This document shows, piece by piece, positions 17,429-64,000 of a DNA stretch of 64,000 nt (position 1 is the first letter of the stretch; each line of letters begins with the position of its first letter). This DNA comes from an uncultured Candidatus Melainabacteria bacterium. GTDB taxonomy: Bacteria > Cyanobacteriota > Vampirovibrionia > Gastranaerophilales > Gastranaerophilaceae. The position numbers were made by a program, and so were the translations under genes. The notes under the pieces were generated by a model that was not told the origin of the DNA, made no database searches, and saw only the letters and a list, made by a program, of their open reading frames with translations. The stretch is from the NCBI GenBank assembly GCA_947361615.1, contig CANAJP010000002.1, positions 18,344 to 82,343 on the forward strand, written 5' to 3'.

Positions 17429-18874
17429 ATGACGTACGTAACAAAACAGAAAAGATTTCAAAACACAAAAAAATATACAAAAACTAAAGCCCCGATTGTT
17501 GAAGCTCTTCAACAGGCTTATCTGAACCCTACATACCAGTTCCATATTCCGGGACACACAAAAGGAGCGGGCGCTTTGCCTGAATTCAAACGTTTAATCG
17601 GAAGCCGCGCGTTGAACATCGATACAACTGATGAATTCGACAATCTTGGCACACTTCACCCTGCAACTGGCCCGATTAAAGAAGCCCAAGAACTAGCGGC
17701 AAAAGCTTTTGGCGCAGAAAAAACATTTTTTCTGCTCAATGGTTCAACAGCCGGAAACCTTGCCATTGCAATGGCTTTGACTAAAAAAGGGCAAAAAGTT
17801 ATTATTAACAGAAACTGCCACCGCTCAGCTTTAACAGGTATGATTATTTCAGGTGCAGACCCGATCTGGGTGAACCCTACCCGTTTTGAAGAATGGGGAA
17901 TCTGGGGCAATATGGCTCCTGAAACGATAGAAGAAACACTTAAAAACCACGATGATGTTTCAATGGTTTGGATTACAAACCCGACCTATGAGGGCGTTGT
18001 TTCTGATATCAAATCAATTTCCGCAATCTGTAAAAAATACAATGTGCCGTTAATCGTTGACGAAGCGCACGCATGTTTGTGGAATTTTAACGAACATCTT
18101 CCAACATCAGCACTCAAACTCGGCGCCGATGCAGTTGTTCACTCTCTTCACAAAACAGGCGGAAGCATGAGCCAGAGTTCAATGCTTCACATTGCGAAAA
18201 ACTCTTTAATCAACGCTGATGATGTCGAAAAAGCATTAAAACTTCTGCACACAACCAGTCCGTCAATGATTTTACTTGCAAGTCTTGACGCGGCAAGAGC
18301 AAATCTTGATTCTCAACGTGGAAGAAAAGCACTTTCAAGAGCCGTTGCAAACGCTAAATACTTACGCAAAGAAATCGACAAGATGGAACACATTCACCAT
18401 CTTCGTCCAGACTTCGGCTACAAAACAGATGTAACAAAAGTTTTCATCAAAGCTGATGGACTCTCAGGCAAAAGATTAGAAAGTATTTTGGAAATCGACT
18501 TTAACATTGAAGTTGAAAGCGCGTCCGATAATGGTCTGTTAATCCTTTCCAACATCGGCAACAAGCGTTCTGACATTGAATATCTTGTAAAATGCCTGAA
18601 TAAAATTGATAAAGCGCACTATTCAGACATCTATTATCTTGAAAACAAAAAACACATGCCAATGCTAACCCCGCAAATAAAAATGAGTTTGCGCGATGCA
18701 TATTATGCAGAAAAAGAAACTCTGCCCAAAGCACAGGCAATCGGTAGAATTTGTGCGGAAGTAATCGCTGAATGCCCGCCGGGTATCGCAATTTTGCTTC
18801 CTGGAGAATTGATTACGGAAAAACATCTTCCATATCTGACCGATTACGAATGTATCGAAGTTATTAAAGCTTAA
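17429..18874 (+). CDS. Orn/Lys/Arg decarboxylase (PLP, group III)
   Basis: QFHIPGHTKGAGALPEF, VDEAHACLWNF, HSLHKTGGSMSQSSMLH. Confidence 0.93.
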   Translation: MTYVTKQKRFQNTKKYTKTKAPIVEALQQAYLNPTYQFHIPGHTKGAGALPEFKRLIGSRALNIDTTDEFDNLGTLHPATGPIKEAQELAAKAFGAEKTFFLLNGSTAGNLAIAMALTKKGQKVIINRNCHRSALTGMIISGADPIWVNPTRFEEWGIWGNMAPETIEETLKNHDDVSMVWITNPTYEGVVSDIKSISAICKKYNVPLIVDEAHACLWNFNEHLPTSALKLGADAVVHSLHKTGGSMSQSSMLHIAKNSLINADDVEKALKLLHTTSPSMILLASLDAARANLDSQRGRKALSRAVANAKYLRKEIDKMEHIHHLRPDFGYKTDVTKVFIKADGLSGKRLESILEIDFNIEVESASDNGLLILSNIGNKRSDIEYLVKCLNKIDKAHYSDIYYLENKKHMPMLTPQIKMSLRDAYYAEKETLPKAQAIGRICAEVIAECPPGIAILLPGELITEKHLPYLTDYECIEVIKA

Positions 18875-23650: not shown

Positions 23651-23730
23651 CCTCTGTGCTGCTATTTTTATTGACAGAAGTTGAGAAATGATTTAAAATA
23701 AAAATATAGTAAGAAAGGATTTTATAAGGT

Positions 23731-24890
23731 ATGAAAAACTTAAAAGCTGAAAACCCTTGTAGTGTAGCCTTTTCCACTGAGGGGGGGGGGGGCAAGACTT
23801 AGTTAGTGAAAAGTCGTTAGTTAAGAGTCAAGAGTTCAATATGGGGAATAAACCCGTGCGTAGCGCGCATAACGAACTCCTTACTCATTACTCTTCACTC
23901 CTCACTAACTCTGCGTTTACGATGGCTGAAATATTATTATCCCTCACCATCATCGGCGTGGTTGCGGCAATTACATTACCAAGTTTAACCGGAAACATTA
24001 ACGAGCGCATGTGGAACACGCAGCGCAAAGCACTTTATGCTAGATTTTCACAGGCTATTTCTTTAATGCCTGCTCTTAACGGATATGGAACTTTAACTCA
24101 GGACGCTAGCGGAAGTGTTACGACAGATACAGCAACGGAAACTTTTATCACCGCAGGACTGGCCAAAGTTTTAAAAATTAACAACATTTGTGATAACGAT
24201 CACCTGCCTGAGTGCGGAATTGTATCTTCCATCATAAATATGGGTGTGACTAAAATCACAACGCCTAAAAATCTTTACGAATTAAATAACCACTTCCAAA
24301 GTGCTTCGGTGTATGGGTTAGCAAATTTTTCGGCTATTAATACCAAAGCTGCCGCGTTTGAAACACAAAATGGGGAAAGTATCATTGCCTACTATAACCC
24401 CTCTTGTAGGACTCAATATTTGAGCAACGAACAAATGAGTTCAACTATGAATACTTTTGGGTACCCGCAAACTACTATGTGTGCGAATTTTATCTATGAC
24501 TTAAACGGGCTTAAAGGGCCGAACACTGTTGGAAAAGATATTGGTTTTATAACTGTATTCAATGCCATTGATTCAATCGTAGTCGCTCCAATGCCGTCTG
24601 CTAATACAAATGCAACATTCGAAGGTTCTAATAATATGATTTGGAATAACGCAGCAAAAGCATGTACGCTTCAGGATTCAGAAAGCAGAATTCCAAATAT
24701 TGAAGAAGCATCTGCTATGTTAATTAATAAAAATTTAATCAATTTAAGCAGCGCACCAGCAAATTATTATTGGACAAGCACAATTCTTGCAACTAACCCT
24801 AGACAAGCCTGGCAAATTGTTCCCAACAAAGGGATTCGAACAACTGAGTACAAAACACAGCTACGCTTTGTTAGATGTATAAAACGTTAG
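23731..24890 (+). CDS. type IV prepilin-like surface protein, poly-G contingency gene (frame broken by G12 at 23781-23792); ORF-track start 23841
   Basis: SAFTMAEILLSLTIIGVVAAITLPSL; C-terminal YYWTSTI…LRFVRCIKR; an upstream ATG with RBS is fused in-frame if the G tract is 13 nt. Confidence 0.8.
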
Positions 24891-28176: not shown

Positions 28177-29378
28177 TTATCGTTTAACACACCAGACAGG
28201 ATAGTTTGTACCAACACCCCAATCGTCAATCTCTCCAGTGCCCATATTTGCTGCAATACCAACAAGGTTGCCGTCCCTCGGCCTTGTTTGAACGGTTGAC
28301 GACCAATAAGTGGTATTTGTAAATCCTACCGGTTGCAACAATTGTTTATTTACGAACATTGCATAAGTTTCTTCCAGATTAGGCAAACGGTATTCCGCAT
28401 CCATGTTCGTACAAGCTTTTCCCGCGTTTCTTTGTGCTGATGCAGGTAATGTTTTCGCTGCCGCTTGCGGCGCAATAACTACCGGATCACTTGGATATAA
28501 AACTGTCATAACTCCAATATCTTTACCCACAGTATTAGGGCCTTTGTTACCGTTTAAATCAAAAACAAAATTTGCACAAACCGTTCGTTGATAAAGAGAA
28601 CCAGCCGCCTGGCCTGATGAATTAACACCCCAATTGATATCATTCAAGGAGCCCATACAATACGGATTTACATAAGCTATAATACTTTCTCCATTTTTCG
28701 TTTCAAATGCAGCAGCTTTTGTATCCTTGACATAGAAAGACTGAACACCATTATTGAGAGAGCCAACCATTTTAGGGTTTAATTCTTTCATAGTTGTCGG
28801 TACGCTTTGGGTAGAGCCAGCCATTGTCGTGATTTTACTTGAAATTCCGCAATCATTTAAATGAGTATTATCGCAAACATTATTAACTTGAAGAACTTTA
28901 CCTAATACATTTGTCACAAAAGTTTCGGCTGCGGTATCAACACCATCACCGGCACCTGAAGAACTTTCTTCTGTTACAGTTGCATAACCGTTCAACGCCG
29001 GCATTAGGGCAATTGCCTGTGAAAATCGCGCATAAAGAGCTTTTCTCTGAGTGTTCCATGTACGTTCGTTAATGTTACCGGTTAGCGATGGCAACGTTAT
29101 CGCTGCGACCACGCCGATAATTGTTAATGATAGCAGGATTTCGGCCATGGTGAAAGCTACTCGTTGTACAGTAGCCCGCAAACCCATTATGGAACCCGCT
29201 TGACCGCGGGTGTCATGCTGAACTCGTTTCAGCATCTGGCCAGCGTGGAATTCTACCAGTGACGTTTGACAGATCCCGAAACAAGTTCGGGATGACAAGT
29301 GGGAGTAGAACGCCCCACTATTTCTACCAAAGAGGCTCCCCCCCCCCCTGTCAAAGTGTTTACAATTTTGTTTTTCAT
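28177..29378 (-). CDS. type IV prepilin-like surface protein, poly-G contingency gene (frame broken by G11 at 29338-29348)
   Basis: AFTMAEILLSLTIIGVVAAITLPSL; ATG at 29378 (MKNKIVNTLT-GGGG…) fuses in-frame if the tract is 12 nt; ORF-track start 29298 is a TTG inside a palindromic repeat. Confidence 0.8.
29211..29296. repeat. palindromic repeat of the GTCATGCTGAAC family, inside the prepilin leader region
   Basis: GTCATGCTGAACTCGTTTCAGCATCTG … CAGATCCCGAAACAAGTTCGGGATGAC. Confidence 0.85.
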
Positions 29379-32205: not shown

Positions 32206-34413
32206 TTGTCAAAATACGCTTTAGCATTAGTAAATATCAAGGGATTGGGGGTAAAGACATACAGTTACCTTATTCCTGATGAAATGCAGGGCAAAATCCA
32301 AATCGGTCAGGTTATTCTTGTACCTTTTGGAAGACAAGGACTCGTAAATGCTTTTTGTGTGGGGTTTTCCGACTACTTACCACCCGAAATCAGGGCTAAA
32401 AAGGTGAGTAAAATTCTGGAGGGAAATCCCCTTTTTAATATTGATTATTTGAAGCTTCTTGAATGGGTTGCGAATTACTATTGCACGGATTTAATTACGG
32501 TTATAAATGCTGCAATTCCTTTAAAATTAATCGAGAAAGCCTCAAAAACCGAACAGTATTTAGAATTTGTACACTTTGATGGAGCAACAAAACGTCAGGT
32601 TGAAGTGCTTGAAAAACTTCAAACACGTGGCAAATGCAATCTTATTGTGTTTGAAAAAGAGGCAAAAACAACCCGCGCAACAATCAAAAAGCTTGAAGAA
32701 CTCGGCTGTCTGCGCCTGAGTAACGAGGAGCTTTACCGCAACCCGCTTGATGTTCTGCGCATAACTGAGCGCGAAGAACTTTTTGAACTTTCCCCGGAAC
32801 AAAATACCGTTTATGAGGGCATAAAAAAGAAAATAGCTCAAACGCCGACAGATACGATTCTTTTGCACGGTGTTACTGCAAGCGGAAAGACAGAAGTTTA
32901 TTTCAAACTCATTGATGATTGTATAAAATCAGGCAAAAATGTTCTTTTTCTTGCGCCTGAAATTGCACTTGCCTCACAGCTTACCAAACGTCTTGCGCGA
33001 AAATTCGGGACCGAAGATGTTGCCATCTGGCACAGTAGTATTTCAGACGGCGAACGGTACGACGTCTGGCAAAAACTTTACCGTGACGAAATAAAAATAC
33101 TCGCAGGCGCACGATCTGCGGTTTTTGCCCCGCTAAAAAACATCGGCCTGATTATTATTGACGAAGAACACGAAGGCGCATACAAACAAACCAGCCCTGC
33201 TCCGCGTTATGACGCAAAAGTGGTTGCGCAAAAATTACAGGAGTTTCACAACTGCCCGATGATTTTAGGCTCTGCAACTCCTGATATTTCAAGTTATTAT
33301 CGCGCAATAAACAGCAAAAACCTTTTTGAAATGCTTAAACGCTACAATAACGCCAAAGTTCCGCCTGTGTCGGTTATAAACATGCAAAATCACGGCAAAG
33401 CCGCATATAAAAACCTTATTTCCAAACCCTTGCAGACTGCAATCACCGAAACCCTTGAAAAGGGTCAACAGATAATTCTGCTTATCAATCGCCGCGGATT
33501 TTCGACATACTCACAATGTCAGGCCTGCGGCCATGTAATAGAATGTCCGCATTGTGCAATTCCGATGATTTGGCACGCAAAAGACCAGCGCTTAAAATGC
33601 CACTACTGCAATCATACTGAATACTTCCCTGATTTTTGCCCGTCCTGCGGCTCAGACTCATTCAAAAACAGCGGGGTCGGAACACAAAAAATAGAGCAGT
33701 ACATAAAAGAACTTTACCCTGAAAACAATGTTGAGCGTATCGACAGCGACATTCTAACCCGCAAAGGCGAACATGTTCGCTTGCTAGAAAAATTCCAACG
33801 GGGTGAAATTGATATTCTTGTCGGCACACAAATGATTGCCAAAGGCCTCGACAACCCGAACGTAACCCTTGTCGGCGTAATCTCAGCGGACGCAAGTTTT
33901 AACCTGCCGGATTTTAGGGCATCAGAGCGCGGATTTCAACTTCTAACGCAGGTGGCAGGACGCGCAGGACGCGGAGAATTCTCGGGAAGCGTAATTTTCC
34001 AAACATACAACCCCGACTACTACGCTCTTGCAAGCGCAAAATCACAAAACTACAAAGAATTTTATGATACCGAAATTGTAGCACGTGAAGAATTCGACTA
34101 CCCGCCATTCAGCCAGATTATCCGTATAATTCTTAGTAGTGAAAACAACTTCCGCGCCGAAAAATCAGCGCAGGAAATTGTTTTACGACTTGCCACTATG
34201 ATTGAAAAATTCGGGGTTTCCGAACGTCTTGAGGTGCTGGGGCCAACACCTTGTGTAATTGAACGCATCAACGGACTTTATCGCTTCCAAATAATCATCA
34301 AAAACAAACTTGGTGAAAAAGGTCACAGTTTTATTTCTAGTTTCATAGGAAAGATAACGATGCCACGCGACATCCGTATGGCCGTTGACGTAGATCCTCT
34401 GGATATCCTTTAA
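32206..34413 (+). CDS. priA: primosomal protein N' (replication restart helicase)
   Basis: GVTASGKTEVYF, DEEHEGAYKQ, Zn-binding CQACGHVIECPHC, GRAGRGEFSG. Confidence 0.97.
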   Translation: MSKYALALVNIKGLGVKTYSYLIPDEMQGKIQIGQVILVPFGRQGLVNAFCVGFSDYLPPEIRAKKVSKILEGNPLFNIDYLKLLEWVANYYCTDLITVINAAIPLKLIEKASKTEQYLEFVHFDGATKRQVEVLEKLQTRGKCNLIVFEKEAKTTRATIKKLEELGCLRLSNEELYRNPLDVLRITEREELFELSPEQNTVYEGIKKKIAQTPTDTILLHGVTASGKTEVYFKLIDDCIKSGKNVLFLAPEIALASQLTKRLARKFGTEDVAIWHSSISDGERYDVWQKLYRDEIKILAGARSAVFAPLKNIGLIIIDEEHEGAYKQTSPAPRYDAKVVAQKLQEFHNCPMILGSATPDISSYYRAINSKNLFEMLKRYNNAKVPPVSVINMQNHGKAAYKNLISKPLQTAITETLEKGQQIILLINRRGFSTYSQCQACGHVIECPHCAIPMIWHAKDQRLKCHYCNHTEYFPDFCPSCGSDSFKNSGVGTQKIEQYIKELYPENNVERIDSDILTRKGEHVRLLEKFQRGEIDILVGTQMIAKGLDNPNVTLVGVISADASFNLPDFRASERGFQLLTQVAGRAGRGEFSGSVIFQTYNPDYYALASAKSQNYKEFYDTEIVAREEFDYPPFSQIIRIILSSENNFRAEKSAQEIVLRLATMIEKFGVSERLEVLGPTPCVIERINGLYRFQIIIKNKLGEKGHSFISSFIGKITMPRDIRMAVDVDPLDIL

Positions 34414-35559
34414 TCCATCCGACGAATACAGTATAAACTCATACCACGCAATTCTGCTTTAGTTGTACAGTTACGATAGCCTATAGCTGTACTTACCCGC
34501 CAGGCCTTTCCACTATCGCATGAACTTGTTGTCCAAAGTATTTCTGGAAGCGAAGAGCCTAAGAATTTTTTATTTACAAATACAGCCGCACCCTCGTCAT
34601 AATTAGGTGCTCTGCCTTCACCATAACGTTCCTTGCATAATCTATTAGCTGCACTAAAATCACCACCTTGTCCAGAAAGCGAACCGTATGGTGAAACAGC
34701 TACTACATTTGAGTCTGACGGATACATTACGGTAATAAACCCGATATCTTTACCAACCGTGTTCGGGCCTTTAGAACCATTCAAATCATAAACAAAATTA
34801 ACACACATAGATTTTTGTGCATAATTAAGTTTTTCACCGTTTGAACGTTGTTCATCTATATCCGCAGTACAAGCAGGGTTATAATATGCAATAATACTCT
34901 CACCGCTGATCGTTTCAAAGGCTCCCGCATCAACATCAGCAACAGTCACCGAATGTGTATACGTACCACCGGCAGAATTAGTAAATACTTTATAATAGCT
35001 AAATGCAGAGTTTAAATTATATAGAGTATCAGGAACAGAAGCAAGCTGCGAACCGTTAAAATCAGTAATTTTAGACGGAATTCCACAATCAGCTAAATGC
35101 TTGTTATCACAAATATTATTAATTTTTAAAACTTTTGACAAACCATCGGTCAAAAAGGTCTGTGTTGCTATAGATTTTGTTTCTGACGTAGTTGCCCCTT
35201 GCCCATAACCATTCAATGCAGGCATTAAAGCTATTGCCTGTGACATACGTGCATAAAGTGCTTTTCGCTGCGTATTCCATGTGCGCTCGTTTATGTTTCC
35301 TGTCAATGACGGCAAAGTTATCGCCGCAACTACACCGATAATTGTGAGAGATAATAATATTTCCGCCATAGTAAAGGCCAAGCCGAGCGGAGCCACGGAG
35401 CGAAGCGGAGAGACGAGCGCGCGACGCGGCAAACCGCGCTTTGGCACGCAAGCGCGAGCGGTGGCGTTCAACGCGAGGCGCAGTTCTAACGCCCCACTAA
35501 ATATACCTAAGAGAGGCCCCCCCCCCCCCTGTCCATGTTAAGACATTAAGTTTTTTCAT
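34410..35559 (-). CDS. type IV prepilin-like surface protein, poly-G contingency gene (frame broken by G13 at 35517-35529)
   Basis: AFTMAEILLSLTIIGVVAAITLPSL; ATG at 35559 (MKKLNVLTWT-GGGG…) in-frame with 12 G; ORF-track start 35471 is a TTG. Confidence 0.8.
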
Positions 35560-38924: not shown

Positions 38925-40104
38925 TCACCGTTTCACACAATACGCATCCAATCTATCCGCAGGAGTGGAACCACCAAATCCTTGGACCAAAACAGCGGTA
39001 CCGGCATTTGTAAACAACCCTTTGACTTTACCACCTTCAACAGCCGTAGATGACCACAAATGCTGCCCCGTCTTAATATCATATAATTTGTGGTTAACAA
39101 ATAACGAAACCAATTCCTCAAAATTGGGCAGACGATATTCCTCATCCATTTTTCTACAAGCAGATACTCCCTCTTGGAAATAAACGTGGTGCAAAGCTTC
39201 TTTATTATTAATAACCGGCGCAACTACAACGCTATCGCTTGAATATAATGCCGTCATGACACCAATATCTTTGCCCACAGTATTTGGCCCTTTTGAACCA
39301 TTCAAATCATAAAGAAAATTCACACAAACTTTCGACTGTACTTTATAAGAAGTTCTTTCATTCATGTTGGATGTACATTTCGGGTTATAATATACTACAA
39401 GACTTTCGCCGTTAGCCGTTTCAAAGGCCGCTACCTTTGTATTTTTAAACATTGAATAAGAAAGCATTTCGCCGTTCAAATCTGCGAAAGTAGCAGGAAA
39501 AGAAGCTACTTTATTTCCATTTACTGTATTAAAACCTTTGCTAGTAATACCACAATCATATAAATGTTCGCTGGCACAAATATTATTTATCTTTAACACT
39601 TTGGACAGTCCGGCCACAACAAAAGTTTCTGCGGCAGTATCTTCTGCATCGCTTGCACCTGCTGAACTTTCTTCTTTTAGGGTTCCATAACCATTTAATG
39701 CAGGCATTAACGCTATCGCCTGCGAAAATCTCGCATAAAGCGCTTTACGCTGAGTATTCCAGGTTCGCTCGTTAATGTTACCTGTTAATGACGGCAACGT
39801 TATCGCAGCAACTACACCGATTATCGTTAGGGATAAAAGAATTTCAGCCATAGTAAATGCAATACAGGTCACCCTTTTTCTGTCATGCTGAACTCGTTTC
39901 AGCATCTGTCCAGCGCTACATTCTACCGGTGTCGTTTGACAGATCCCGAAACAAGTTCGGGATGACAAATGTAGTAAACACATTATCCTTATTAACTTAT
40001 TAACATGCCAACTTATTAACTCGGCGTTCTCTTCTATTAGGCGTGGGCCGTTAAGAAAACTCCCCCCCCCCCCCTGATAAAATGTTTACATTTCTCTTGT
40101 TCAT
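38925..40104 (-). CDS. type IV prepilin-like surface protein, poly-G contingency gene (frame broken by G13 at 40062-40074)
   Basis: AFTMAEILLSLTIIGVVAAITLPSL; ATG at 40104 (MNKRNVNILS-GGGG…) in-frame with 12 G. Confidence 0.8.
39880..39965. repeat. palindromic repeat of the GTCATGCTGAAC family, inside the prepilin leader region
   Basis: Same inverted-repeat arms as 29211-29296. Confidence 0.85.
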
Positions 40105-44467: not shown

Positions 44468-47137
44468 TTATTTTAACATAAATTTTAAATTTTTATAAGG
44501 GATATCTAATTTCCAATTAGCTTTGTCAAAAATATTATCTTTAACAAAATGAAGATTATCATTATCATTAAACGGATTAGTTTTTCCCTCATAGCAAGAT
44601 GGCTGCCAAACATGACCTGCTTTGATATAAACACCATTTTTCTTTTCAGTTATAATTTTTTTACCAGTGAATGGATTCACAGCGTCTTTAATAAGGCCTT
44701 TTACCGCGATATATGGAACATCCGCATTAGTCATAAATTCCTGCGAAGTTTTAAATTCATCCTTTGAATTAAAATCTTTTATAATTAACAATGGATTATA
44801 AGGCATAATATACGTATTCTCAAACTTCGAAAATGTTGGGTTAACAACATCCCGTCCATGGTCAGAAACAATTATAATTCTTGTGTTATTATAAACACCG
44901 TTTTCTTTTAGAAAATCCATATATTTACCAAGCATTATCAAAGAAGTGGCATTAACATGGTAATGCTTTAATGCATGAGAGTTATCCAAAAATCCATGTA
45001 TATCGTCAGGAACGCCAAGAGAGGCGTCCAGAGTAAAATCATCTCCGTAAAGTAAATTAGGTTCATGAGGTAAATCGTTATTAATTACAATAAATGAATT
45101 TTTACCTTTTGAAAAACCTGTTAACTGAGGCAGGTAATAAAGTTCTGCATAATTTTCCACCAAATACGAAGAATGATAATCTATCAGATTTGAATTAAGG
45201 TATTTCCCTTTATTATAAATATATTTTCTAACAGCCGGTTGCGATACAGTCATCAAACTATAATATAGAAAGTTTCGCATAGTTAATTTCGTATTCTTAT
45301 CATCCAAATCACCATTAGCCATAAATGCAGAGCCTAAATCGCCTCTGACCTTTTTATAATTGACGCCTCTTTCACCGTAAATTTTGTCTGTTTCAAGCCA
45401 TTTATAACTCCAATCATCCCCCGGAGCATCCGCAACAGTCGCTTGCCATCCTTCTTTCGCAAATAAAGCAGGAAGCATTCCCAACGCTTCAATATATTTA
45501 TCAATAACAGAACCCGTCGTATTTTTAGCCATATTTAATGGAGTGTACTCATATCCGCCTAATATCGTCTGATATCCAAGGAAAGTATACCCCGCCATCG
45601 AAACAGTGTTCGGATAATAAACAAATCCAGAAAATTCATCTTTCAACTCGGGTTTTTCACTGAAAATCAACGGCAAATAAGAACTCAATGCCCTATCGAG
45701 GAATATAATCAATACATTCTTATTATCCGTGCTAAAGTTAAACGTATTCGATTTGTCATAAGATTTAGCATTCGCAACAGACGCCCTGTAAGTACGATGT
45801 TCCTTATAGATTTTCACATAATTTACGCCTGTTGAAACAATAAGAGAGCAGGCAACAATCATCACCAAACTTTTAAGGGATTTTCTCGCGAATAAAAACA
45901 ACGCAACAATAACAATAAATCCACCCAAAAGACACAGCGGATACAACATACCCTCAGGCGATGAAAAATATACAGTTTCGGCATCAAATTTTAGCGTATT
46001 CAACAAACTACACTCAGGCATAGGTATCAAATAGACATTCAAAATCCAGTAAAACAAAAGTAAGCTACTGACAAATGCCATAATTTTACGAGTATTCTGT
46101 GACGAAAGAACAAAAAAGCATCCACCCCAGAATAAAAACAATCCGAAAGCCTGTAATGCCGGAACCATCATTATTCCAAAAGGTGTTATGCCGGAAGCTA
46201 GGAAAGTAAATTCCACCGGTGAAGTTACAACGACATTTGATGGTAGCAAAACGCCGACAAACAGCCACAATGCCGCACAAGTTATAAAATATAGCCACTT
46301 TGGATTAAAGTTGCAGAGAAACTTTTTAATAAATCCCATCTTCGGCGCCAAAACCATCAAGCCAAGTATTATAATGATTATATCCAGATTCAAATAATAT
46401 TTCTTCGCAATTACATAATAAATTACCAACGCCGAAGCCATAACACATTTAACAAACGCTTTTTCACCCAGCCCTCTCAGCCCGAGATTTTTGATTAATG
46501 AAAAGAAGTTGTTAAACGTCCAATACAAAACAAGCCCTGATGGCGAATTATATAAAAGTACCAAAAACACTAAACTCATAATATACAATTGAGCATTTTT
46601 CTTAAACGACTTATCTTCTGTATAAACATAAGCCGCGCAAATATTCACAAGTGTCATTACAATTGGAAGAAGATTTATAGACACAGCTCCAAGCTTAATA
46701 AGTCTATCCGGTTCCGCAAGACTTGAAACATTTAACAAGGCCGTTTCATTGAATATCTGCAAATGCGAAAAGAACAAATACGCAGCAAGAAAAAACGGTA
46801 TTTGCAGTAATAAACTAAAACTTAATCGTAATGCCATCACAGGATGGTAATTATTCTGCCTGTAATAAGTCTGTAACAAAAGATGTTTTTCATCACCGGA
46901 AAAATTCTTCTTGATACTGTTAACACGCGCAGCCATTTTAGCCTGAATGCTCTCTTCTTCATGTTGAAGTTTCGCAGCATTCAAATACAATGGTAAACAA
47001 AACAAAAAAACAATATAACTTATCAACAAGATAGTAAGCGCAATATTAGCATTCGTCATCGTATATAACGCATAAAACGAACTCTCAAGAGCTGCATAAA
47101 TAGGATAAATTATGATTTGAAATAGTGCCTCTAACAT
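44468..47137 (-). CDS. YidC/Oxa1-like insertase domain fused to a sulfatase/alkaline-phosphatase-superfamily domain
   Basis: N-term YYRQNNYHPVMALRLSFSLLLQIPFFLAAYLFFS…LYNSPSGLVLYWTFNNFFSLIKN; further TM helices; C-term NVLIIFLDRALSSYL…INNDLPHEP…IIIVSDHGRDV. Confidence 0.85.
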   Translation of the reverse strand: MLEALFQIIIYPIYAALESSFYALYTMTNANIALTILLISYIVFLFCLPLYLNAAKLQHEEESIQAKMAARVNSIKKNFSGDEKHLLLQTYYRQNNYHPVMALRLSFSLLLQIPFFLAAYLFFSHLQIFNETALLNVSSLAEPDRLIKLGAVSINLLPIVMTLVNICAAYVYTEDKSFKKNAQLYIMSLVFLVLLYNSPSGLVLYWTFNNFFSLIKNLGLRGLGEKAFVKCVMASALVIYYVIAKKYYLNLDIIIIILGLMVLAPKMGFIKKFLCNFNPKWLYFITCAALWLFVGVLLPSNVVVTSPVEFTFLASGITPFGIMMVPALQAFGLFLFWGGCFFVLSSQNTRKIMAFVSSLLLFYWILNVYLIPMPECSLLNTLKFDAETVYFSSPEGMLYPLCLLGGFIVIVALFLFARKSLKSLVMIVACSLIVSTGVNYVKIYKEHRTYRASVANAKSYDKSNTFNFSTDNKNVLIIFLDRALSSYLPLIFSEKPELKDEFSGFVYYPNTVSMAGYTFLGYQTILGGYEYTPLNMAKNTTGSVIDKYIEALGMLPALFAKEGWQATVADAPGDDWSYKWLETDKIYGERGVNYKKVRGDLGSAFMANGDLDDKNTKLTMRNFLYYSLMTVSQPAVRKYIYNKGKYLNSNLIDYHSSYLVENYAELYYLPQLTGFSKGKNSFIVINNDLPHEPNLLYGDDFTLDASLGVPDDIHGFLDNSHALKHYHVNATSLIMLGKYMDFLKENGVYNNTRIIIVSDHGRDVVNPTFSKFENTYIMPYNPLLIIKDFNSKDEFKTSQEFMTNADVPYIAVKGLIKDAVNPFTGKKIITEKKNGVYIKAGHVWQPSCYEGKTNPFNDNDNLHFVKDNIFDKANWKLDIPYKNLKFMLK

Positions 47138-48528
47138 TCGCTAACTTCTTTCTGCTTTGCAACCAAAAAATCTACAACTCTAACAGCACTTTCACCTCTA
47201 TACTGCCAGGCTACATCTTTTGCCGACTCAATAACATTCTGAGGAACAGTTTCCCCTATCTCACTTATTATTTGAACAACATCAGAAAGATTTTCTCTGT
47301 TTAATTCTTTGCCAATCTCTTTAACAACACAGTAACGCCAAGGAGTTTCATCCAAATCAGACATATCGTATAAATCAATATTCATCTCTGTATCTATATA
47401 TATAAAAGGTCTGTTAAATAAAAATGCATAATCAAACATTACACACGAAAAATCACTTATCATAATATCAGCTTTGCTCAAAACATCAAGGTTGTTAGAA
47501 TCAAAATTCCAGCTAATATTCTCATAATCTTTAAAATCATTCATTAATTTTTCAACGACATCACGCTCAGCAGTCATTGATTGTGGGTGCGGTCTAACAA
47601 CGATATTAAACGAAGATTTTGATAAATGACCTAAAAGCTCGGCACCAAATTTGCACAATAACCCATCCGGCCCCCAACTCGGTGCAACCAAAACCGTAAC
47701 TGAATTGTCATTCCTTGAGAGGAGGCCCCCCCCCCCCCCGGCTAGTTCGGCCGCGAGAAAATCCATATATGTACTTCCAACAACCGGTAATTCCTTGGCC
47801 GGAAGATTTCTTTTCATTTCTAATTCACGGATTAATGGAACCTGATATTCTCCATCACACAAAACTGAATCATAATAATCAACCCCAAATAAATGGTAAT
47901 CAACAGATATCCCTATAGAATGAAAAATATGACTATAATGCTTCACAAACTTAGAACGTTTTAACTGCAATACATCCAACTGTGGAGTCGTCATCAAACA
48001 AACATCCGCACGCAAAAAAGCCAGCTTAAAATATGCACTGTTTCCCTGTCCGATATATTCGCCTGTAACATATTCATATTTTTCATCGAAAAACGGATCA
48101 TCATCGCTAGAAGTCAAATAAACAAGCGGAATCTTACGTCGTTCAAACTCATCAAGAACGGGTTTAAAAACCGGGAAATATCTTGTGCCCTCAGAATAAA
48201 TTACAAAAGTTTTATTATCCTTGCTCAAACCACGTGAGGCAAAAAGAGAACCTTTCAGTTTTATAAATAAAGAATACAACACGAAATAAGCCGTCGCGCA
48301 CATACCTAATACGACAGAAAAGAGCATACTTCCCGTTCCCGGGTCAATATACGCCCACGCAGGAGTATAAAATCCGATTGCTATAAATATAAACAAAACA
48401 CTTGTAATAATCCGTGCAAAAGAAATTCCCATTTCCAGCTCTCCTAACAAGGAGTATCGCATAAAAATTTCAGAATAGCAAAAAAAATTTTTCAGGAGTT
48501 TATAATAAAAAATCATGGACATGTTCAC
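47131..48528 (-). CDS. CDP-glycerol:poly(glycerophosphate) glycerophosphotransferase-like protein containing an in-frame G14 tract
   Basis: SVTVLVAPSWGPDGLLCKFG, VVRPHPQS, ADIMISDFSCVMFDYAFLFNRPFIYID; poly-G encodes AGGGGGLL; true start likely downstream of 48528. Confidence 0.88.
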   Translation of the reverse strand: MNMSMIFYYKLLKNFFCYSEIFMRYSLLGELEMGISFARIITSVLFIFIAIGFYTPAWAYIDPGTGSMLFSVVLGMCATAYFVLYSLFIKLKGSLFASRGLSKDNKTFVIYSEGTRYFPVFKPVLDEFERRKIPLVYLTSSDDDPFFDEKYEYVTGEYIGQGNSAYFKLAFLRADVCLMTTPQLDVLQLKRSKFVKHYSHIFHSIGISVDYHLFGVDYYDSVLCDGEYQVPLIRELEMKRNLPAKELPVVGSTYMDFLAAELAGGGGGLLSRNDNSVTVLVAPSWGPDGLLCKFGAELLGHLSKSSFNIVVRPHPQSMTAERDVVEKLMNDFKDYENISWNFDSNNLDVLSKADIMISDFSCVMFDYAFLFNRPFIYIDTEMNIDLYDMSDLDETPWRYCVVKEIGKELNRENLSDVVQIISEIGETVPQNVIESAKDVAWQYRGESAVRVVDFLVAKQKEVSEC

Positions 48529-63178: not shown

Positions 63179-63935
63179 ACCAGTAATTCGTTACATTTGC
63201 ACGATCCTCGTGTTTTCCACCATGAATAGCATTCGCGACATAAAAATTACTTACAGTTACACTAGAAACTGGCGAACCTATACAATATTCACCTGAAATA
63301 GCACTCGCAAGCACAATCGGAACCACAGAATATTTCTTAGGGAAAGTATGTGTATTAAAACCTACAGCCTTTCCCCATTGTAATAACAGTATACGTGTTG
63401 TTTTTGAACTGTTTGAGAATAATTCAAAATAACTATCACCAGTTGTAACTGAAATATTGTAATATAGCCCATTAGCTGTTGCCGTAGATATCGCCGATTT
63501 TACGAATGCCGTTGTAGCTATTTTGGTCGAATTATCTCCCGTTGGGGGGGTAGGTGCCGCAGTGATGACATTACCATTTTTATCAACTGTTGCTTCAAGC
63601 ATAGCCGTAACATTGGTTCCATCAGGCTTGTTAAGTCTAGCAATCATTTGAGAACCCACTGCTCCTGATGTGGAAACGAAACTACGAAAATCACTGCGTA
63701 TTGTATTATTAGCATTTAATGTTCGAAAACTACGAATACGAACACTTTCAGGAACGCTTCCATTACCAGTAAAACCTGTATCTTTTAGCATGTGATGAAC
63801 TTGTCCATCTGCTAAAGTCGAAGATACAAATAGAGAATTTAAAAATGTCTTTATACCACTTATAGTTTCATTCCCAACTAAATGCATAAATTTTTTATCA
63901 ATGATACCATTTTCATTGTACAAATAAGCGGTTCG
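63162..63935 (-). CDS. phage tail fibre protein, C-terminal part (truncated by contig end)
   Basis: HLVGNETISGIKTFLNS; APTPPTGDNSTKIATTAFVKSAI; frame open up to the terminal poly-G. Confidence 0.8.
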   Translation of the reverse strand, partial: RTAYLYNENGIIDKKFMHLVGNETISGIKTFLNSLFVSSTLADGQVHHMLKDTGFTGNGSVPESVRIRSFRTLNANNTIRSDFRSFVSTSGAVGSQMIARLNKPDGTNVTAMLEATVDKNGNVITAAPTPPTGDNSTKIATTAFVKSAISTATANGLYYNISVTTGDSYFELFSNSSKTTRILLLQWGKAVGFNTHTFPKKYSVVPIVLASAISGEYCIGSPVSSVTVSNFYVANAIHGGKHEDRANVTNYWFAIGK

Positions 63936-63968
63936 GGGGGGGGGCCGGGGGGGGGGGGGGGGGGGGGT

Positions 63969-64000
<32 letters not shown>

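Follow-up and report, generated by a model that had tools for sequence, protein, structure and literature searches.

Organization of the c1 locus

The stretch of DNA analysed in the current study (the window) is 64,000 nt in length and corresponds to nt 18344 – 82343 of contig C2 of the host assembly. Its first tract-bearing prepilin-like gene, c1, has the following features:

nt 23671 – 23699, plus strand: promoter-like sequence TTGACA-N17-TAAAAT (motif match)
nt 23712 – 23719, plus strand: ribosome-binding site AGAAAGGA (read from the sequence)
nt 23731 – 23780, plus strand: first part of the leader, MKNLKAENPCSVAFSTE (frame reading), with the ATG at nt 23731 – 23733
nt 23781 – 23792, plus strand: tract of 12 G (G12); ON lengths 10 and 13, OFF as assembled
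nt 23793 – 23912, plus strand: tract-to-core insert, open in the pilin frame only (0, 2 and 7 stops across the three frames)
nt 23913 – 24890, plus strand: prepilin core, A|FTMAEILL to stop (mechanical ORF, nt 23841 – 24890)

An earlier note had described a G12 run within a prepilin-like gene that was out of frame by one nucleotide. The run was found at exactly the coordinates that it gave, beginning 50 nt inside the ORF that opens at ATG 23731, and both this start codon and the ribosome-binding site upstream of it are present. When tract lengths are modelled, 12 G leads to a TAG at nt 23800 – 23802 and a product of 23 aa, the stop that the note had foreseen. Its proposal that 13 G would rescue the frame also holds: this length gives a protein of 386 aa, and 10 G likewise gives one of 385 aa, each passing through SAFTMAEILL into an intact prepilin that ends at the natural stop. 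Modelled lengths of 9, 11, 14 or 15 G give short products only. According to the frame models and stop counts, tract length modulo 3 sets whether the product is full-length (ON) or truncated (OFF). As is typical of phase-variable loci, the long homopolymer lies 3' of the start, in the 5' part of the coding sequence. Tract lengths were taken from assemblies, one genome per species, and in a draft assembly the exact length is uncertain by about one base and not reliable locus by locus; the OFF call at c1 could be wrong, which would leave the mechanism unchanged.

An internal ATG in c1 (nt 23841) was considered as a start and rejected, as it has no good SD-like motif and the sequence before it is open solely in the pilin frame. 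Internal initiation was also rejected as a general route of translation, the insert offering an in-frame start and SD-like motif in only 7 of 76 tract copies.

Other tract genes in the window

Four further genes of the window carry long G tracts:

nt 28177 – 29378, minus strand: prepilin c2; ATG at nt 29378, G11 tract at nt 29338 – 29348, core at nt 28180 – 29157
nt 34410 – 35559, minus strand: prepilin c3; ATG at nt 35559, G13 tract at nt 35517 – 35529, core at nt 34413 – 35378
nt 38925 – 40104, minus strand: prepilin c4; ATG at nt 40104, G13 tract at nt 40062 – 40074, core at nt 38928 – 39860
nt 47131 – 48528, minus strand: Glyphos_transf-like gene, a separate tract gene; G14 at nt 47726 – 47739, mid-ORF, ON as assembled

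The layout is common to c1 – c4, and all four copies are OFF in the assembly. Gene c2 would be ON with 9 or 12 G and c4 with 12 or 15, and in both the insert is a palindromic element; c3 as assembled is one base above an ON length (ON+1), hence OFF. The prepilin genes stand singly among housekeeping genes (map, ybaB, priA, fmt and a gene that we take to be recR). All five interior G or C runs of at least 11 nt in the 64-kb window (37.5% G+C) fall within coding frames, four of them 30 – 50 nt inside prepilin leaders, which argues that the G12 of c1 is not a chance run.

The end of the window (nt 63935 – 64000) and many contig ends of the host genome are made up of extended runs of G or C that include odd bases, often beside a pilin leader, and are likely to be sequencing or assembly artefacts.

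The prepilin family of the host genome

The host is an uncultured gut bacterium of the Gastranaerophilales, and the relatives of its RecR come from Candidatus Gastranaerophilales MAGs. Its genome assembly (1.83 Mb, 108 contigs, 95.6% complete) gave 107 matches when searched with the c4 core, from which 88 distinct N-terminal prepilin cores were recovered. Tract and start are readable in 49 copies, and all 49 show the same order: ribosome-binding site, ATG, leader of 10 – 17 codons, G9 – G14, variable insert and core AFTMAEILLSLTIIGVVAA. Their tracts range from 9 to 14 G with a mode of 13, and as assembled 6 are ON, 40 are ON+1 and 3 are one base below an ON length (ON-1). The motif AAAGGA precedes most copies. 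For 25 cores a contig end cuts the upstream sequence within 200 nt, indicating that the assembly breaks preferentially at pilin leaders. Most of the approximately 90 pilin-like genes of the host appear to have a G9 – 14 leader tract of their own. Tract switching does not control every family member: about 10 copies with upstream sequence have no tract within reach, and several among them (L084, L109, L118 and the second copy at L067, for instance) have an ordinary short leader that a tract would not govern. In three prepilin leaders (L053, L236, L245) AFTMA(G) is duplicated on either side of a short insert, as would result from entry of an element at the cleavage site with target duplication.

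The N-terminus of c1 scores 17.4 bits against the prepilin model TIGR02532 (cut-off 16.3), in agreement with the earlier reading of the gene as prepilin-like. Across 70 paralogs the sequence FTMAE, including Glu5 of the cleavage/methylation motif, is invariant, and column entropy is close to 0 over the first 40 residues and roughly 3 bits in some regions of the middle and C-terminal domains. An AlphaFold model of c4, made with the 70 paralogs, has a mean pLDDT of 90.4 and consists of a helix (residues 2 – 51) followed by a globular head; pLDDT is 59 – 72 over the first 30 residues and 87 – 96 in the rest of the helix. The Lcl_C profile (PF07603) is matched by 44 of the 70 paralogs at E<0.01, and c1 itself reaches 26.3 bits, under the cut-off of 34.9. 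With Foldseek, the C-terminal domain of the c4 model matches that of Legionella Lcl (8q4e_A, probability 1.00, TMt 0.62) as well as the C-terminal domain of Bdellovibrio Bd2740 and C-type lectins. The mature protein is predicted to comprise a pilin helix and a C-type-lectin-like (Lcl_C) domain, and from the model we infer a role of the family in adhesion. The resemblance to the Legionella domain (PF07603, PDB 8q4e) extends to both profile and fold, but Legionella Lcl is a collagen-like protein, whereas here a type IV pilin-like protein would carry the domain as its head.

PilB/PilT-type ATPases were found in the host genome. A prepilin peptidase (PF01478) was not found in the host assembly (95.6% complete), while each of six congeners has one; its absence is likely to reflect assembly loss.

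Inserts and selection on the reading frame

The inserts between tract and core vary from 1 to about 500 nt and are frequently palindromic repeats, which occur in either orientation. Stops were counted in 51 inserts of at least 45 nt, each from a different copy, in three genomes (9,887 nt in total). The pilin frame contains 12, compared with 190 and 207 in the other two frames, and is fully open in 47 of the 51 inserts (4 and 0 in the others). With one copy per insert family, 12 of 14 are open in the pilin frame versus 2 and 0. Since stops are depleted in the pilin frame alone, the inserts are translated from upstream in that frame, and translation through the tract is, judging from these counts, under selection. 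Two of the exceptions to the open inserts are L034 and L048, in both of which the same insert supplies a site resembling a ribosome-binding site and a start right before the core; this would release the two copies from tract control.

A syntenic ortholog of c1 occurs in congener G005 (78% protein identity, versus 50 – 56% for paralogs), where the gene has G12 and no insert. Comparison of the two gives pN 0.128, pS 0.73 and a dN/dS of about 0.05, with dS saturated. The c1 core is thus kept by purifying selection despite its OFF frame in the assembly.

These data bear on whether c1 could be a frameshifted pseudogene, or owe its state to an error in homopolymer length. Individual tract lengths are indeed unreliable, some contig ends have implausible G runs (nt 63935 – 64000), the tracts of G005 contain NN joins, and at least two copies (L056, L211) have a stop within the leader. 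Set against this, the c1 core is under purifying selection, its insert is open and its promoter intact, dozens of copies share the architecture, which also occurs in other species, and a length error would alter the called state of c1, not the mechanism. A dead gene or artefact is on this evidence extremely improbable.

Promoters and the independence of the copies

The motif TTGACN-N15-19-(T/C)ANN(T/A)T was found in 49 of 74 upstream regions, compared with a mean of 0.6 and a maximum of 4 in mononucleotide shuffles, so that the family copies are likely to be separate transcription units. The promoter candidate of c1 is sigma-70-like.

In Neisseria, the pilE/pilS system has many pilin copies with a conserved N-terminus and a variable C-terminus. 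The copies described here show the same contrast between their nearly identical N-termini and diverse C-termini, and could by analogy be a store of mostly unexpressed donors that recombine into a few expressed loci. Consistent with exchange, the c2 locus in congener G003 has a syntenic promoter and leader matching those of the host but a core that is only 60% identical, which suggests that pilin cores have been exchanged between loci. Unlike pilS copies, which have neither promoter nor start, those found here are complete: they have their own promoter, ribosome-binding site and start, and each retains an insert that is open from tract to core. It is very unlikely that most are silent cassettes.

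Distribution among relatives

Five of the six congeners have 95 – 110 copies each, and the tract module is present in all five (0 for a reversed-pattern control); the sixth, G006, has 6 copies and no tract module. The c1 site itself is without a pilin in G001, G002, G003, G004 and G006. At the syntenic c2 locus the tract is G11 in the host (OFF) and G12 in G003 (ON), a difference at one locus between different species. At loci anchored on RecR, other Gastranaerophilales have hardly any tracts, because conservation of the pilin copies does not extend to those sites.

Genus G028 has at least 16 tract genes. Among the matches listed, all 16 that were resolved are prepilins of other subfamilies, whose leaders contain the G run and which have N-termini such as GFTLAEVLITLGIIGVVAAL. 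The leader tracts at L288 – L302 in this genus are mainly G10, one base below ON, on unrelated prepilins.

The ON+1 regularity

Among 45 clean host copies, 37 are exactly ON+1, whatever their absolute length, and 5 are ON. Copies that require a length of 0, 1 or 2 modulo 3 have modal tracts of 13, 11 and 12, respectively. Shuffling lengths among copies places a mean of 23.5 at ON+1, and none of 20,000 shuffles reached 37, a p-value that overstates independence, as the permutation treats related copies as independent. ON+1 is also the commonest state in G004 (p 0.08) and G005 (p 0.03), whereas G028 leans the opposite way, with ON-1 in 13 of 16 among the matches listed. The strong excess of ON+1 among OFF copies is not what a simple random walk predicts; it could stem from selection that keeps copies silent yet poised, from slippage during expression, or from descent.

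If RNA polymerase or the ribosome slipped on the G run, copies that are one G off ON would still make some pilin in every cell, and the ON+1 excess in the host, G004 and G005 speaks for such recoding. The mostly ON-1 tracts of G028 would require the opposite slip, ON, ON+1 and ON-1 copies occur together in a single genome, and the permutation test takes no account of kinship, all of which makes recoding improbable. Rather unlikely, too, is a tuned, family-wide switch in place of independent random walks, in which the tracts would be held one G above their own ON frame, silent by default and one contraction, or one polymerase or ribosome slip, away from expression.

A proposed frame switch

The G12 of c1 is very probably a slipped-strand contingency switch, one member of a very large pilin-adhesin repertoire of about 90 paralogs. 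A working frame switch is much likelier than a broken gene, given the open inserts, the copies' own promoters, selection on the c1 core and the presence of the module in paralogs and five congeners. The earlier note's reading of c1 as a prepilin gene that is OFF with 12 G and ON with 13 or 10 is correct. Under the proposed mechanism, replication slippage in the G run would shift the frame between the leader ATG and the pilin core, such that about a third of lengths would yield the full prepilin and the others would stop within a few dozen codons. Prepilin peptidase would then cut at A|FTMAE and remove the entire leader together with any element between tract and core; because none of the leader is kept, neither the tract nor the inserted elements would harm the mature protein. 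The ON product would be displayed on a type IV pilus or pseudopilus as a long N-terminal helix with a C-type-lectin-like head, and cells would express shifting small subsets of the repertoire. What the analysis shows directly is the gene anatomy, the reading frames, selection acting on inserts and core, the size and distribution of the family, and a predicted fold; we infer switching in living populations, removal of the leader, surface display, adhesion and a benefit to the cell.

Comparison with known systems

Poly-G contingency loci, pilC of Neisseria among them, have been described in Neisseria and Campylobacter jejuni (PMC5953494, PMC8437040, PMC5084427). The present loci resemble these in having a homopolymeric G run near the 5' end of a surface gene, frame-dependent ON and OFF states, and many loci per genome. 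They differ in that the former are mostly diverse genes, whereas in the present case some 90 paralogs belonging to one pilin family share the switch in a 1.8-Mb genome, and in that the switch lies within a presumably cleaved leader, in a non-photosynthetic cyanobacterial lineage. The vlhA genes of Mycoplasma gallisepticum are a large surface family in which each member has a variable repeat and is active at one repeat number (PMC6258824). The two families are alike in being large, paralogous and surface-related, with a variable repeat for each member, but vlhA has promoter GAA repeats that act on transcription, whereas here the G run is coding, lies within the leader ORF and would act on translation. 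Palindromic repeats inserted in frame in coding genes are known from Rickettsia, among others. The inserts described here are similar, but differ in lying inside the leader, after the switch and before the core, and in being tolerated in either orientation.

In the literature searched, no paper links Gastranaerophilales with phase variation, and the one that combines Melainabacteria, pilin and phase variation deals with flagellin diversity. A 2025 review of phase variation mentions neither cyanobacteria nor Melainabacteria (PMC11868660). For Neisseria meningitidis, 115 phase-variable genes are predicted (PMC5084427); if the present interpretation is correct, the number of switches would be comparable in order to that full predicted set. 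A common uncultured lineage of the animal gut would then devote about 5% of its genome to one switchable pilin-adhesin family, by a simple design that places a hypermutable switch and adjacent junk in a leader removed by cleavage, and surface variation in relation to host immunity, phages and changing attachment sites would become testable. Annotation pipelines will miss or truncate such genes, and assemblies break at them.

Tracts outside the pilin family

The glycerophosphotransferase-like surface-polymer gene of the window (nt 47131 – 48528) is open with 11 or 14 G and truncated with 12, 13, 15 or 16, and is probably another phase-variable gene. Elsewhere in the host genome, L209 and L218 have C10 runs that encode a proline linker (PVK-APPPT) and stand apart from the pilin tracts. 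The sequence CTTAACCGG, found 3' of non-pilin tracts (5 of 9, background 1%), at first suggested a mobile tract module, but two of the cases, L209 and L218, read on the opposite strand as proline-rich coding sequence, and such a module is therefore not claimed. At L212, L213, L217 and L219, non-pilin loci, G13 – 14 lies close to or within the ORF; these four include an ABC1-kinase-like gene that is out of frame as assembled and a PRTase-CE protein.
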